Shown here one piece after another: positions 21,099 to 28,120 of a stretch of DNA of 64,000 nucleotides. Below the pieces are notes generated by a model. The model was not told the origin of the DNA and made no database searches. It saw only the letters and a program-made list of their open reading frames with translations. The stretch is from an uncultured Erysipelotrichaceae bacterium (GTDB taxonomy: Bacteria > Bacillota_I > Bacilli_A > Erysipelotrichales > Erysipelotrichaceae), in NCBI GenBank assembly GCA_944325255.1, contig CALUZH010000010.1, positions 1-64,000 of the forward strand, written 5' to 3'. How positions within the stretch are numbered: position 1 is the stretch's first letter; each line of letters opens with the position of its first letter. The position numbers and the translations under genes were made by a program.

Positions 21099-21935
21099 CT
21101 AGTCTTTTTCTAAATTTTCAACAACCTTAGCCAGGTAATGGCCTTCATAGTCTTCGATTAAACCTTCATCAGCCAGTAAAGCCAAATGCGTATCTAACGG
21201 CAAACTAGCTAAAAGTTCCAAATTATAACGTTTGGCCAAATTGGCACTATCATCATCTTGGCCATGCAGGTAGATATCCTTACCGCAATCCGGACATAAG
21301 ACATAGGCCATATTTTCCACCAAACCCAAAAGTTTGGTATTGGTTTTTTGCGCCATGACAATCGTCTTGGCAACAATCATCGATACTAATTTAGAAGGAT
21401 TGCTGACCATTAAAAGGCCATCAACCGGAATATCTTGCAAAACCGAAAGTGCAACATCGCTGGTTCCCGGCGGCATATCAATCAATAAATAATCCAATTC
21501 GCCCCAATGTGCTTCACTGTAAAATTGGCTTACCATCCCGCCGATAATCGGGCCCCGCCACAAAACCGGTGTCTCCTCACTTTCTAACATCATATTAATC
21601 GATAAGATCTTGATGCCCTTTTTGGCAGAAAGATTAGGATAAACCCCCAGTTCGTCACCATAAGCCGGCTCTTCCATATGGAAAATCTTAGGGATGCTCG
21701 GTCCGGTAATATCCGCATCCATGATGCCGACCTTATAGCCCTTATCGGCCAGTTCAACTGCCAAAAGAGCAGTAATCATCGATTTACCGACCCCGCCTTT
21801 GCCGCTTAAGACGCCGATTATTTTCTTGATCTTAGTATCAGCCAAAGGGGTCTTTTTGGCCGGTGCTTCATTGCGGCAATTGCAGTCCTCACCACAACCG
21901 GTACAATTATGATCACAATTATTTGAATTTGTCAT
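21099..21935 (-). CDS. mrp: Mrp/NBP35-type Fe-S carrier ATPase
   Basis: This 278-residue P-loop protein has a deviant Walker A motif (SGKGGVGKS, near residue 46), LLIDMPPGTSD and a CxxC pair (VLCPDCGKD). An N-terminal extension has five closely spaced cysteines (CDHNCTGCGEDCNC) like those of eukaryotic NBP35. The family carries [4Fe-4S] clusters to target proteins. It is the last gene of the rnf operon, directly after rnfB, with AAGGAG as ribosome-binding site. That position suggests it helps to load the Rnf clusters (inference). Confidence 0.9.
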   Translation of the reverse strand: MTNSNNCDHNCTGCGEDCNCRNEAPAKKTPLADTKIKKIIGVLSGKGGVGKSMITALLAVELADKGYKVGIMDADITGPSIPKIFHMEEPAYGDELGVYPNLSAKKGIKILSINMMLESEETPVLWRGPIIGGMVSQFYSEAHWGELDYLLIDMPPGTSDVALSVLQDIPVDGLLMVSNPSKLVSMIVAKTIVMAQKTNTKLLGLVENMAYVLCPDCGKDIYLHGQDDDSANLAKRYNLELLASLPLDTHLALLADEGLIEDYEGHYLAKVVENLEKD

Positions 21936-21947
21936 GTTTACTCCTTA

Positions 21948-22256
21948 TTATATAGATTTTACTTTTAATGTTTCGCCATCCGGGCCCTTGGTACTATTCA
22001 AATATTCAACAATTTCATCCCGTTTTTCCTGGGTACTCGGACGACAATTTACCACATCGGTTTCCTTATTGACCAGGGCCGAAGCTAAACCGCTGCATCC
22101 CGGATAGCCGCAGCTTCCGCAATTATATCCCGGAAGCAAGGATGTAACCTTTTCAATTCTTTCATCGACTTCAACAGCGAAAACCTTGGCCGCCACTGCC
22201 AATAAAAGCCCTAAGGCCATACCGATAATAAGCATTACTATAAAGGCGTTAAGCAT
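21948..22256 (-). CDS. rnfB: Short RnfB without ferredoxin domains
   Basis: This 102-residue RnfB has the N-terminal membrane helix (about residues 3-24) and the Fes domain with cysteines 46, 49, 54 and 71 (NCGSCGYPGCSGLA). It then stops naturally 12 bp before mrp. Usual clostridial RnfB proteins exceed 260 residues and carry two or more further [4Fe-4S] ferredoxin domains; none is present in any frame before mrp. The start at 22256 overlaps the upstream small gene by 8 bp. Electron entry into this complex may therefore use another ferredoxin-like partner. Confidence 0.88.
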   Translation of the reverse strand: MLNAFIVMLIIGMALGLLLAVAAKVFAVEVDERIEKVTSLLPGYNCGSCGYPGCSGLASALVNKETDVVNCRPSTQEKRDEIVEYLNSTKGPDGETLKVKSI

Positions 22257-22440
22257 TTTTATTTTCCTCCTTGAAAAGACGATCGTTATTAGGATGTGCC
22301 ATACATGAAGTAATATTGCATCCTTCACAACTGCTGCGTAAATTTTCACATCCTTCAGGTTTTGGCGTCTTATGATTGAAATAATATAAGACCCCATATA
22401 TTACTGCCAGGATAATAAAATAAATAATCGCTTTAATCAT
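22249..22440 (-). CDS. Small cysteine-rich membrane protein (NqrM-like candidate)
   Basis: This 63-residue protein has one N-terminal transmembrane helix (residues 4-20) and a cytoplasmic tail with four cysteines (31, 38, 41 and 46). Its start codon overlaps the rnfA stop codon (ATGA) and its end overlaps rnfB, so it is an integral part of the operon. Size, topology and cysteine pattern resemble NqrM (DUF539), which delivers iron to the Cys4[Fe] site between the NqrD and NqrE subunits of Na+-NQR; RnfA and RnfE are the homologues of those subunits. A FeoB-associated cysteine-rich protein is the alternative family. Confidence 0.72.
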   Translation of the reverse strand: MIKAIIYFIILAVIYGVLYYFNHKTPKPEGCENLRSSCEGCNITSCMAHPNNDRLFKEENKNA

Positions 22441-23012
22441 ACAATACCGGTCAAACCACTGAAAGCCAAGGCCATAAGACCGGCTACTACTAAGGCAATC
22501 GGATTGCCCTTAAAGGATTCCGGCGTATCGGCGCTGTCAAGTCTTTCCCGAATACAAGAGAAAAGATAGAGCACCAGCATAAATCCCAAAGGTACGGCAA
22601 TCGCATTGGTCATCGTTTCAATCAAGTTGTAGCCTTGGGTAATATTGTCTTGAGCGACATATAATACTACACAGTTCGTCGTAATAAGCGGCAAGTAGAT
22701 GCCGAGATTTTTATATAAGGAAGCACTGTATTTTTTAATAAACATCTCGACAAATTGGACAAAGGCCGCAATTACTAAAATGAAAGTGATGAGTTGCATA
22801 TATTCAATATGCATCTTTACCAAGACTTGATAATAGAGAAAATAAGTAATGAGGCTGGCCCCGAAGATAACAAATATTACAGCCAATCCCATGCCGACAG
22901 CACTCTTGGAATTTTTGGAAACACCCAAGAAAGGACATACACCCAAAAACTTGGAAAGTACGACATTATTGATCAGGACAGCTGCCAAAGCCATCGTTAA
23001 AATTTCACCCAT
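22437..23012 (-). CDS. rnfA: RnfA electron transport subunit
   Basis: This 191-residue six-helix membrane protein has the RnfA/NqrE half-motifs with cysteines in LGVCPFLGVS (near residue 25) and ITTNCVVLYV (near 112). These cysteines, with the equivalent ones of RnfE, bind an intramembrane iron centre. The gene begins 1 bp before rnfE ends and overlaps the downstream small gene by 4 bp. Confidence 0.96.
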   Translation of the reverse strand: MGEILTMALAAVLINNVVLSKFLGVCPFLGVSKNSKSAVGMGLAVIFVIFGASLITYFLYYQVLVKMHIEYMQLITFILVIAAFVQFVEMFIKKYSASLYKNLGIYLPLITTNCVVLYVAQDNITQGYNLIETMTNAIAVPLGFMLVLYLFSCIRERLDSADTPESFKGNPIALVVAGLMALAFSGLTGIV

Positions 23013-24172: not shown

Positions 24173-25648
24173 TTATTCTCCCGCTACTTCAAATGCAGCC
24201 TGTACCGCAGCAACTACCGATTTGGAAGTATAAGTAGCCCCCGATACAAAATCGACGCTGTCAGTGGCTGATTTACCGATAAAGCTTTGAAGCAAGGCAT
24301 CAAGTGCGTTATCGCCAATACCCGGCGTATCACCGAAATTAACAAGCTTAATATCTTTGACCTTGCCATCTTCAATCCAAATATCAAAGACATTTTCACT
24401 ATAAACATAATCGCCATGGCTTCCGCCTCCGCCACCGCTTTCACTATCTAACATACCATAGCCCGTTACCGTTACCCGATAAGAGCCATCATCATTAAGT
24501 TCAACCTTAGCTCCCTGCGGTTCATAATTGCCGGCCAAGGTCAAAGTTCCCGAACTGTTAAAATCAGCAATATTAATGCTGCGATAAGCCTTGGCATCAA
24601 GTCCCAAACCTAAGACTCCAATCAAAACTACCGAAGCCAGAACTACCGTAATAACACTGATATTAATTTTATTTAAATGTTCCACCTGCTTACCGGCAAA
24701 ATATTTATCAATAACCGGCGTTAAGATATTACCGAATAAAATGGAATATAATACCCCTTCCGGCAAATTGGAATAGTAACGGATAATTACCGTAATCAAG
24801 GCAGTCAAAGCAGCATAAACCATCTTACCGGCTCGGGTTGTCGGACTGGTAACCGGATCGGTCAACATAAAGACCGCCCCAAAGACGGCACCACCGGTCA
24901 AAACCGCATATAAGGCATAATCAAAACCTAAGCCATGCGGCAAGGCCACTAAGAAAGAACCGACAAAAATAACCCCCAAATAAGTTACCGGTATCCGCCA
25001 ATCAATAACGTCCATAAGTGTTAAATAAACACCTAAGGCCAAAATCAAAAGACTGCTTGTTTCACCCATGGCTCCCTGATAAAATCCTAGGGCTAAATTG
25101 CCAAGACCGCCGAAATCATTTAAGAAAATAGCGAAATCACTCGGTGTAGCAATTTGGCCAACTGCCGCCAAAGTCGAAGCCGGCGTAGCTGAAGTAATTA
25201 AATCAACCGATATATTGCCGGCAAAACTGGCAAAGATAATAGCTCGGCCCACTGCTGCCGGATTAAAGATATTTTGCCCAAAACCGCCAAAGACCAGCTT
25301 GCCGAAAAAGATGGCAATAAAAGTCGCTACCACAATGGCATAAACTTCAGTATTGACTTGAACCATCAAGGTCAAAATAATCGCTGTAACCCATGGGAAT
25401 GAGCTTTCCAATTGATCTTTTATTTTGATATGCCGACACTTGGCCCAAACGCATTCCGTCAAAATCGCCGTAACATTGCTGGCGAGCATCAACAATATGG
25501 CATTAAGCAAATATGCCGTACCTAAACTATAAGCCCGATAAAGAGCGAAAACATAGACAATAAGCAAGGCAATCGTCAAATGCATCATGATTCGACCGGT
25601 CGAATTTTTCCGTTGCATATGCGGTGCCGTTTCAAATTTTAATTCCAT
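24173..25648 (-). CDS. rnfD: RnfD with fused C-terminal FMN-binding domain
   Basis: Residues 1-350 form a normal RnfD with about nine transmembrane helices, the GAMGETSSLL flavin motif (threonine 197) and the LTDPVTSPTTRAGK loop. Residues 355-491 form an extra extracytoplasmic domain with a glycine-rich loop (405-409) and a second covalent-FMN motif VSGATYTS (threonine 472), as in RnfG. Ordinary RnfD ends near residue 320-350. The fusion adds a third predicted covalent FMN to the complex. The reading frame is uninterrupted. Confidence 0.92.
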   Translation of the reverse strand: MELKFETAPHMQRKNSTGRIMMHLTIALLIVYVFALYRAYSLGTAYLLNAILLMLASNVTAILTECVWAKCRHIKIKDQLESSFPWVTAIILTLMVQVNTEVYAIVVATFIAIFFGKLVFGGFGQNIFNPAAVGRAIIFASFAGNISVDLITSATPASTLAAVGQIATPSDFAIFLNDFGGLGNLALGFYQGAMGETSSLLILALGVYLTLMDVIDWRIPVTYLGVIFVGSFLVALPHGLGFDYALYAVLTGGAVFGAVFMLTDPVTSPTTRAGKMVYAALTALITVIIRYYSNLPEGVLYSILFGNILTPVIDKYFAGKQVEHLNKINISVITVVLASVVLIGVLGLGLDAKAYRSINIADFNSSGTLTLAGNYEPQGAKVELNDDGSYRVTVTGYGMLDSESGGGGGSHGDYVYSENVFDIWIEDGKVKDIKLVNFGDTPGIGDNALDALLQSFIGKSATDSVDFVSGATYTSKSVVAAVQAAFEVAGE

Positions 25649-25658
25649 TTCTGCCCCC

Positions 25659-26945
25659 TTACTTCTTTAAAAGCGCCAATGAACGCTTGGCCCTTCTGAT
25701 GCCTTCGGTAACGGCAATCTTTGAAGGACATACATATGTGCACATACCGCACTCAATACAATCCTGGGCCTTTAATTTCTTTACAAGATCCAAATCCTTG
25801 GCTTTAAAGGCCTTATTGATATTGACCGGTTGCAAACCGCTTGGACAATGGTCAATACAAGCTCCGCAACGAAGACAAGCCAAAGGCTTGATATCTTCAT
25901 ATTTTAAGACCGTGACGGCATTGGCAAATGGCGTTATGGCCACTTCATCTTTAGTTACCGTATTGCCCATCATCGGACCGCCGGCAATCAAAGCCAACTT
26001 GCTTATATTTTCATTATAACCGCCGCAAGCTTCAATCAATTCTTTATAGGTTGTGCCCACACGACATAAAACATTATGCGGATTTTTAACTCCTTCGCCC
26101 GATACCGTAACCATCTTTTCATAAATCGGTAAACCGCTGGTCATGGCTTGAGCCAACATAATAGCGGTAGTGGCATTGGATACAATAACGCCGACTTCAA
26201 TCGGCAACTTGTCATAACGCTTTTTAAGCAAGGCATAAACCAATGTCCTTTCCCAACCCATCGGATAAACATCCTTAAGCGGACAGATCTTCACCATCGC
26301 TTCATCCTTGAAACGTTCCTTAAGAAGAGCAATAAGTTCGGTCTTATTTTCCTTAATGCCGATTAAACATTCCCGACAATTCGAAGCCTTAATCAGCGCT
26401 TTGACACCCCGATAAAAATCATCCATCCGGGTCTCAATCATTCTGGCATCAGCGGTAATATAGGGTTCACATTCCACGGCATTAATAATCAAAGTCGAAC
26501 ATTTGTCGGTTTGATACTTGATATAGGTTGGAAAACCAGCACCCCCGCAGCCGACCAAACCCTTATCCTTCATAAAGTCGATAATATCATCGCGCTTCGC
26601 CTCTTCATCAAGGGTAGCAAGATCAGCCTTTTCATCCTTACCGTCATTGGCAATAACGATATGATCAACCGGCTTCAAAGCACATGACATATGTTTTTCT
26701 ATAGCGACAACTTCGCCCGATACCGGCGCAAAGAAAGGCACATAAAAATGATCGTCACGACAAGCAATACGATCACCGATCTTGACCTTATCACCCACAT
26801 TAACCAAAGGCTTGACCACGGCATTACCATGTAAAAGCGGTACATAGACCCTTTCTTTAGGCTTTAATTCAATTATTTCATTGTGAGCGGTAAGTTCTTT
26901 ATGACCATCCAGATGCATTTGCATCGGGCCAACCAAAAATGTCAT
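25659..26945 (-). CDS. rnfC: RnfC NADH-binding subunit
   Basis: This 428-residue peripheral subunit has an N-terminal barrel-sandwich domain, the NADH/FMN-binding glycine loop VGCGGAGFPTYIKY (about residues 126-139), an SLBB domain and two [4Fe-4S] motifs (CLRCGACIDHCP and CIECGMCTYVCP) near the C-terminus. It exchanges electrons with NAD. The ATG at 26945 lies 10 nt after AGGAGG; a TTG two codons earlier is too close to that site. It heads the operon rnfC-D-G-E-A-small-B-mrp. Confidence 0.95.
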   Translation of the reverse strand: MTFLVGPMQMHLDGHKELTAHNEIIELKPKERVYVPLLHGNAVVKPLVNVGDKVKIGDRIACRDDHFYVPFFAPVSGEVVAIEKHMSCALKPVDHIVIANDGKDEKADLATLDEEAKRDDIIDFMKDKGLVGCGGAGFPTYIKYQTDKCSTLIINAVECEPYITADARMIETRMDDFYRGVKALIKASNCRECLIGIKENKTELIALLKERFKDEAMVKICPLKDVYPMGWERTLVYALLKKRYDKLPIEVGVIVSNATTAIMLAQAMTSGLPIYEKMVTVSGEGVKNPHNVLCRVGTTYKELIEACGGYNENISKLALIAGGPMMGNTVTKDEVAITPFANAVTVLKYEDIKPLACLRCGACIDHCPSGLQPVNINKAFKAKDLDLVKKLKAQDCIECGMCTYVCPSKIAVTEGIRRAKRSLALLKK

Positions 26946-26975
26946 AAACAAAAAACCTCCTGACTATAATTATTC

Positions 26976-27016: not shown

Positions 27017-28120
27017 ATGAAAAAAGCTTATATCGGAATTATCATTTTATTGCTTATGCTGAGCTCTTGCAAAAGCTCATATAAGGGGAGCGATGTCTGC
27101 TATGATTGCGGATTTAATACAATATGGAATTATACCTTGTATTGCGATAATGCAGAAAGCTATCAAAATTATCAAAAAATCATTCATGATTCAGCAAAAT
27201 ACTATCATCAATTATTTGATATCTATCATAACTATAAGGGTCTAAACAATATTAAAACCATCAATGACTACGCCGGCATCAAGGCTGTAGAAGTCGATGA
27301 GGCCATCATTGAGCTTTTAAGTTTGGCAAAAGATATTTATCTTTTATCCGATGGCTCCTTCGATATTGCCCAAGGCAAGCTTTTTGCCCTATGGCATGAT
27401 TATCGGGAAGCGGGAAAAACTTTAAACGCTGAAGAAAAAGGCGGTCTTTTGCCAACAGAAAGCGAACTTCAAAACGCTTATAATGCCCAAGCCTTCAGCC
27501 ACATCATCATTGATGATGAAAATAATACTGTCTTCATCGATGATCCGAATGTCAATATCGATGTCGGAGGTATCGCCAAGGGCTTTACAGTCGAAAAAAT
27601 AGCTGCTGAGTTAAAGGACTCAGGTCTTGAAAGCGGAGGCATATCAGCCGGCGGCAATGTCAAAACCATCGGCCAAAAAAATAATAATGAGACTTGGAAT
27701 GTCACCGTCACCGATCCCCGCAATAATACTTATGTCGCCTATGACGGCGTCTTGACATTGGCAGTCAAAGATGACATGAGTGTCGTTACTTCAGGTGACT
27801 ACTTCAATTATTATTTAGATAATATGGGCAATAAGCAGCATCATATTATTAATCCTCATACTTTAAAACCCGGAAATCTTTATCATTCCGTAACTATCGT
27901 TTGCCAAGACAGCGGTTTGGCCGATGCCCTGTCCACTGCCTTGTTCAATATGTCAATAAGTGAGGGAGAAAAGCTCATCAATGATGTGAAAGAAAAATAT
28001 CATTATGATGTGGGCGTCTTATGGATTTTGAGTGAAGAAAATAATGAAGCCATAGAAGATATCGAAAAAAACGGCTTAAGAATCTATATGAATGATAATT
28101 TTGCCCAATATCTCAAATAA
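27017..28120 (+). CDS. apbE: ApbE FAD:protein FMN transferase, lipoprotein
   Basis: This 367-residue lipoprotein has a signal peptide with lipobox LSSC (cysteine near residue 18) and the ApbE domain: DGSFDIAQGKLFALW, the NIDVGGIAKGF flavin-binding loop and VVTSGDYFNYY. It uses FAD to attach FMN covalently to threonine in S/T-G-A-T motifs outside the membrane. Its targets here are RnfG and the two RnfD sites. AAAGG precedes the ATG. It is transcribed divergently from the rnf operon. Confidence 0.95.
   Translation: MKKAYIGIIILLLMLSSCKSSYKGSDVCYDCGFNTIWNYTLYCDNAESYQNYQKIIHDSAKYYHQLFDIYHNYKGLNNIKTINDYAGIKAVEVDEAIIELLSLAKDIYLLSDGSFDIAQGKLFALWHDYREAGKTLNAEEKGGLLPTESELQNAYNAQAFSHIIIDDENNTVFIDDPNVNIDVGGIAKGFTVEKIAAELKDSGLESGGISAGGNVKTIGQKNNNETWNVTVTDPRNNTYVAYDGVLTLAVKDDMSVVTSGDYFNYYLDNMGNKQHHIINPHTLKPGNLYHSVTIVCQDSGLADALSTALFNMSISEGEKLINDVKEKYHYDVGVLWILSEENNEAIEDIEKNGLRIYMNDNFAQYLK

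Follow-up and report, generated by a model that had tools for sequence, protein, structure and literature searches.

NqrM is a small membrane-bound protein for Fe-S maturation in NQR, a complex homologous to Rnf (PMC12174285). The literature that we searched yielded no maturation factor for the Fe-S clusters of Rnf, an energy pump of ancient origin in bacteria; NqrM alone is named there, and for NQR only. The Rnf complex of Azotobacter is linked to an extra protein, RnfH, which is listed without a cofactor and without a homologous subunit in the other complexes (PMC12174285); compared by description only, it shares with the protein dealt with here the linkage to Rnf. Within Rnf, the C-terminal domain of RnfB with its two to seven [4Fe-4S] clusters takes electrons from ferredoxin (PMC12174285).

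A conserved small gene between rnfA and rnfB

The window, by which we mean the whole stretch of 64,000 nucleotides that was analysed, contains rnfC-D-G-E-A-B, all present and in order, with a small gene inserted before the last of them (rnfC-D-G-E-A-[small]-B, 26951 to 21948). NCBIfam matches were obtained for C, D, G, E, A and B. The features of the locus are:

21099..21935, minus strand: Mrp/ApbC-type Fe-S cluster carrier ATPase, 12 nt downstream of rnfB
21948..22256, minus strand: mini-rnfB, 102 aa, transmembrane helix and one Fe-S domain (PF04060), without the C-terminal ferredoxin domain
22249..22256, minus strand: 8-nt overlap of the end of the small gene with the start of rnfB (ATG at 22256), from the sequence
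22249..22440, minus strand, including the stop codon: gene of the small single-TM cysteine-rich protein, 63 aa, from the sequence, relatives' loci and AlphaFold2
22266..22271, minus strand: AGGAGG ribosome-binding site of rnfB, inside the small gene and 9 nt before the rnfB ATG, from the sequence
22303..22329, minus strand: codons of the invariant core C38-x2-C41-x4-C46, from alignments A1 and A3
22348-22350, minus strand: codon of the less conserved C31, from alignments A1 and A3
22437..22440, minus strand: 4-nt ATGA overlap of the small-gene start with the rnfA stop (TGA), from the sequence
22437..23012, minus strand: rnfA, 191 aa, cluster cysteines C26 and C114
23014..23655, minus strand: rnfE, 213 aa, cluster cysteines C23 and C106
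23664..24170, minus strand: rnfG, NCBIfam, below the curated cut-off
24173..25648, minus strand: rnfD with an extra C-terminal FMN_bind domain, NCBIfam, below the curated cut-off
25659..26951, minus strand: rnfC, NCBIfam
27017..28120, plus strand: apbE-like flavin transferase gene, divergent from rnfC

The small ORF (22249-22440, minus strand, ATG start) encodes a protein of 63 aa, MIKAIIYFIILAVIYGVLYYFNHKTPKPEGCENLRSSCEGCNITSCMAHPNNDRLFKEENKNA, whose cysteines at residues 31, 38, 41 and 46 are arranged as C31-x6-C38-x2-C41-x4-C46. The preliminary description of a single-helix, four-cysteine protein whose gene is coupled to both rnfA and rnfB is borne out by the translated ORF, by the overlaps of 4 nt with rnfA and 8 nt with rnfB, and by AlphaFold2, which, when run with 32 relatives, predicts one confident helix (residues 2-24; pLDDT ~95 over residues 1-20). 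The tail is predicted with low confidence (pLDDT ~50-60) and is probably cytoplasmic, because basic residues come after the helix. A profile search of the PDB with the small protein gave no match at E<=1. As to the neighbouring genes, the RnfD of some relatives exceeds 600 aa, which suggests further FMN_bind-type domains, and a query with the Mrp/ApbC ATPase finds matches downstream of rnfB in just one of the 80 GTDB loci described below (L052).

That the small ORF is not a chance reading frame is evident from its relatives. In the best 30 of 60 relatives' loci the gene directly follows rnfA in every case and is itself followed by rnfB in 28, the other two loci being short and without a detected rnfB. 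Among 84,980 GTDB species, a pattern scan with alignment A2, narrower than the divergent A1, returned 80 loci, all of the order rnfE-rnfA-small and 79 of them with rnfB next; they include Holdemania, Longicatena, Dielma, Faecalitalea, Holdemanella, Amedibacillus, Allobaculum, Faecalicoccus and Solobacterium. Similar proteins, which were to be looked for elsewhere, are therefore present in further rnf operons with this gene order. Moreover, dN/dS values of ~0.03-0.13 in close pairs with high protein identity and measurable synonymous divergence indicate purifying selection; at larger divergence the ratio is unreliable because of saturation.

Members of the Erysipelotrichales type share the signature N-x-K-T-P-x-P-x-G-C-E-[DN]-L-x3-C-x-G-C-x3-[SA]-C. 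Over the class as a whole, conservation is confined to the three core cysteines (C-x2-C-x4-C) and, almost completely, to N22 and P28. Of 118 distinct members, 108 have a fourth cysteine, on the N- or C-terminal side of the core (downstream in only 11/118); nine have the three core cysteines only, and one (L042) is without the full core. A fourth cysteine that is found on either side of the core or is missing is easier to reconcile with a labile site than with a fixed cluster.

Occurrence with Rnf and with a short RnfB

The distribution of the small protein was surveyed in 296 genomes of one GTDB class, the listed genomes of the phylum-level sample belonging to no other class, by use of the broad profile A3 (E<=1e-4) for the small protein and TIGR01943 for RnfA. 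The small protein was found in 147 and RnfA in 165 of these genomes. Eight RnfA-positive genomes (f11 g93/g149, G221, G278) are NQR, since the gene after their RnfA-like gene encodes a protein that resembles NqrF and has Fer2 and FAD/NAD domains; the Pfam scan of this protein covered one NQR genome, and the others, read for all but G150, start alike. With these eight set aside, the small protein is carried by 143 of 157 Rnf genomes as compared to 4 of the 139 others (Fisher p ~1e-61, ignoring phylogeny). The occurrence with Rnf is thus near one-to-one and extends over 17 Bacilli families, and the protein is present in none of the eight NQR-only genomes. We take this co-occurrence to reflect in part shared ancestry. 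An apparent presence of rnfA without the small gene in f11 g93/g149 and in two f14 genomes was dropped, as the operons concerned are NQR. Four f14 genomes (G104, G130, G071, G093) contain three to four RnfA matches each, which suggests several operons of the rnf/nqr type.

The exceptions are few. A strict match is lacking in 14 Rnf genomes. In five of them (G281, G091, G069, G119, G164) a reduced ORF of helix and cysteines lies between rnfA and rnfB but escaped the profile; five belong to a single genus with full-length RnfB (g115 of f6); and the assemblies of the other four (G094, G268, G293, G306) are incomplete or contaminated. As for carriers without Rnf, G256 and G303 are 85-86% complete and have the small gene at the unlinked locus of their Rnf-bearing relatives, the gene of G237 is an orphan, and the match in G232 lies within an open frame of 314 residues and was read as due to chance. 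Presence and absence also go together within genus g18, where G018 has both Rnf and the small protein and G202 has neither. In all, the earlier suggestion of a single-TM, cysteine-rich accessory protein specific to rnf is supported.

The small gene does not need to be in the operon to be retained. It sits at another locus, with rnfA directly adjoining rnfB, in f22, where its neighbours encode phosphoglucomutase and uracil-DNA glycosylase, in most of f17 and part of f6, where they encode ThiF and dCMP deaminase, and in f4, where it lies beside the deaminase gene. Being kept with Rnf though unlinked, the gene owes its co-occurrence to more than operon linkage alone. In addition, paralogues are found at metal-handling loci: extra copies lie beside genes of Cu-type P-ATPase/HMA proteins (L034:6769-6960 and L042:6708-6851, the latter copy without the third core cysteine) and beside the gene of a CsoR-type metal repressor (L233:2148-2348), an arrangement that agrees with a putative metal-binding tail. 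Further extra copies, in f14, adjoin pyruvate dehydrogenase genes.

Another trait of these operons, one that the preliminary description did not connect with the small protein, is the size of RnfB. Aligned with the solved RnfB chains (174-333 aa), the RnfB of the window covers no more than their first ~75 residues, and it is without the C-terminal ferredoxin-input domain. It is no truncated artefact, since the 79 RnfB of the GTDB loci agree: none exceeds 127 aa, the start being taken as far upstream as the frame allows. The f9 genomes (L233-L236) have an RnfB of ~187 aa with a tandem second PF04060 Fe-S domain and eight cysteines and no Fer4; we have therefore dropped the idea that theirs is of the ferredoxin type, the extra length being the doubled Fe-S domain. 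Among the families examined this doubled form was confined to f9. The sole exception found is g115 of f6, whose complete RnfB measures 267-277 aa, with Fer4 in the one scanned, and in which none of the five genomes has the small protein. RnfB lengths were read directly in fetched loci, and open-frame lengths agree for the listed genomes. Since g115 probably represents a single event, the correlation with RnfB length cannot separate function from lineage. No paper joining RnfB and Erysipelotrich was found in the literature searched.

Possible roles of the small protein

What, then, would the small protein do for Rnf? Its near-universal presence with short-RnfB Rnf in Bacilli, and its near absence from the rest of that class, suggests that it is probably a dedicated helper in iron handling. 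Our preferred reading, to which we would give a probability of about 45%, is that of a membrane-anchored factor delivering iron or Fe-S clusters specifically to the Bacilli-type Rnf. The single N-terminal helix would anchor the protein in the membrane, and the tail with its C-x2-C-x4-C core and, usually, a fourth cysteine would bind Fe or a labile Fe-S cluster and hand it over while Rnf is being assembled, a part much like the one ascribed to NqrM in NQR. The client may be the [2Fe-2S] site of RnfA/RnfE, towards which the preliminary description had pointed, the single [4Fe-4S] cluster of mini-RnfB, which is made directly after the small protein, or both. We count in favour of delivery the co-occurrence (143/157 versus 4/139), which holds also where the genes are unlinked, the A-small-B order, the conservation of N22, P28 and the core cysteines beside a variable fourth one, the AlphaFold2 model of a helix with a low-confidence tail, the copies at metal loci, the Mrp/ApbC Fe-S carrier gene after rnfB in the window and, by analogy, the precedent of NqrM in the homologous complex (PMC12174285).

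Against delivery stand the lack of detectable homology to NqrM, the share of common ancestry in the class-wide co-occurrence, and the Rnf of g115 together with the eight NQR genomes, which are without the protein and, in the members examined, keep the cluster cysteines. These cysteines (C26 and C114 of RnfA, C23 and C106 of RnfE) are conserved in essentially all RnfA and RnfE examined, and the Bacilli systems that do without the small protein and without detectable NqrM, the Rnf with full-length RnfB and the NQR, possess them no less. Operons of the NQR type (NqrD/NqrE followed by an NqrF-like protein) at loci L210-L212, L214, L216 and L217 (genomes G221, G278, G245, G127, G101 and G144) contain no detectable NqrM. 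With the cluster cysteines intact where both the small protein and NqrM are missing, the RnfA/RnfE site does not need the small protein in general.

The tie to mini-RnfB fits equally well with a role as a subunit. In this main alternative the protein would be a small redox or docking Fe-S subunit that sits beside mini-RnfB and partly replaces the missing ferredoxin-input domain. In its favour, the protein accompanies RnfB forms that have no Fer4 (the 79 GTDB loci of at most 127 aa and the doubled Fe-S domain of f9) and is missing from the only genus whose RnfB is full-length. The spacing of its core equals that of the first three cysteines of the RnfB Fe-S motif, with which it also shares the position after a TM helix, in a neighbouring gene, and the profile probability against the RnfB Fe-S domain is 87%, over 15 columns only; most distinct members (108/118) possess a fourth cysteine. 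Yet the tail, of only ~20-50 residues and with low AlphaFold2 confidence, is much shorter than the RnfB domain and has no conserved fourth cysteine after the 16-residue spacing, nine distinct members have three core cysteines only and L042 is without the core, and the gene is often unlinked, with extra copies at metal loci. Neither the small protein nor the A1 members match PF04060, a Pfam Fe-S match is altogether lacking, and the NCBIfam search with the small protein produced sub-threshold matches only. We therefore regard a subunit role as possible but somewhat doubtful.

A third account would make it a general membrane metal/thiol protein of the FeoB-associated type that lies near rnf for expression only. 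PF12669 is indeed the closest Pfam model, and single TM and short cysteine-rich tail are common to both. But the score of the small protein, 17.9 bits, remains below the cut-off of 27, so that the comparison with this family proposed at the outset ended without a match; the model matches 9 of 24 members of the small family weakly. The profile probability against PF12669-type sequences is 94%, over ~14 columns at the cysteine core; like that against RnfB it is far above column-shuffled controls, and convergence could explain both, as they span 14-15 core columns. Copies at copper loci would suit this account. On the other hand, the source genome encodes a true PF12669 protein elsewhere (G000:C24:87353), the small protein bears the signature KTPxPxGCE(N/D)L, its gene is not beside feoB in any of the loci examined, and it is nearly absent without Rnf (4/139), all of which makes this account improbable.

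It is harder still to see in the protein a structural helix that stabilises the junction of RnfA and mini-RnfB, with the cysteines being secondary. The A-B position and the persistence of the TM helix even in the most strongly reduced forms (~35 aa) speak for it, but the three core cysteines are among the few residues that are invariant throughout the class.

With NqrM the small protein has in common the single N-terminal TM, a polar/basic turn, a short tail with about four cysteines, a length of ~60-80 aa and an accessory position to a homologous complex. It differs from NqrM in its cysteine spacing and in occurring with Rnf, not NQR. PF04400 (DUF539), the family with which a comparison had been proposed, has no match in the source genome (E<=10) or in the 296 class genomes (E<=0.01), although the model finds four true NqrM, taken from plasmid records, with scores of 30-80 bits. 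The hhalign profile probability against NqrM is 10-18%, and the GSCGG(L/I) motif that follows the helix in the NqrM of L162-L169 is absent, GCE(N/D)L being found instead. What stands of the NqrM-like designation is thus the layout of helix, turn and cysteine tail, and not family identity. A true NqrM recruited to Rnf is for these reasons the least credible account, in spite of the like layout, similar length and four cysteines of the protein and its place next to the NqrE homologue.

Implications for Rnf of the Bacilli

The small gene and the short RnfB may together mark a distinct class of Rnf in the Bacilli, whose RnfB would have given up the ferredoxin-input domain, its function being supplied or relayed by a tiny membrane Fe-S protein, a proposal that we rate as rather unlikely. 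If it is true, the Rnf pump would have in the small protein a seventh component that has gone unrecognised. The two features open to testing the assembly of the membrane [2Fe-2S] cluster and the route of electrons into Rnf in Bacilli of the gut and elsewhere, that from ferredoxin into complexes with mini-RnfB among them. The small protein might also be needed for producing such Rnf complexes in another host.
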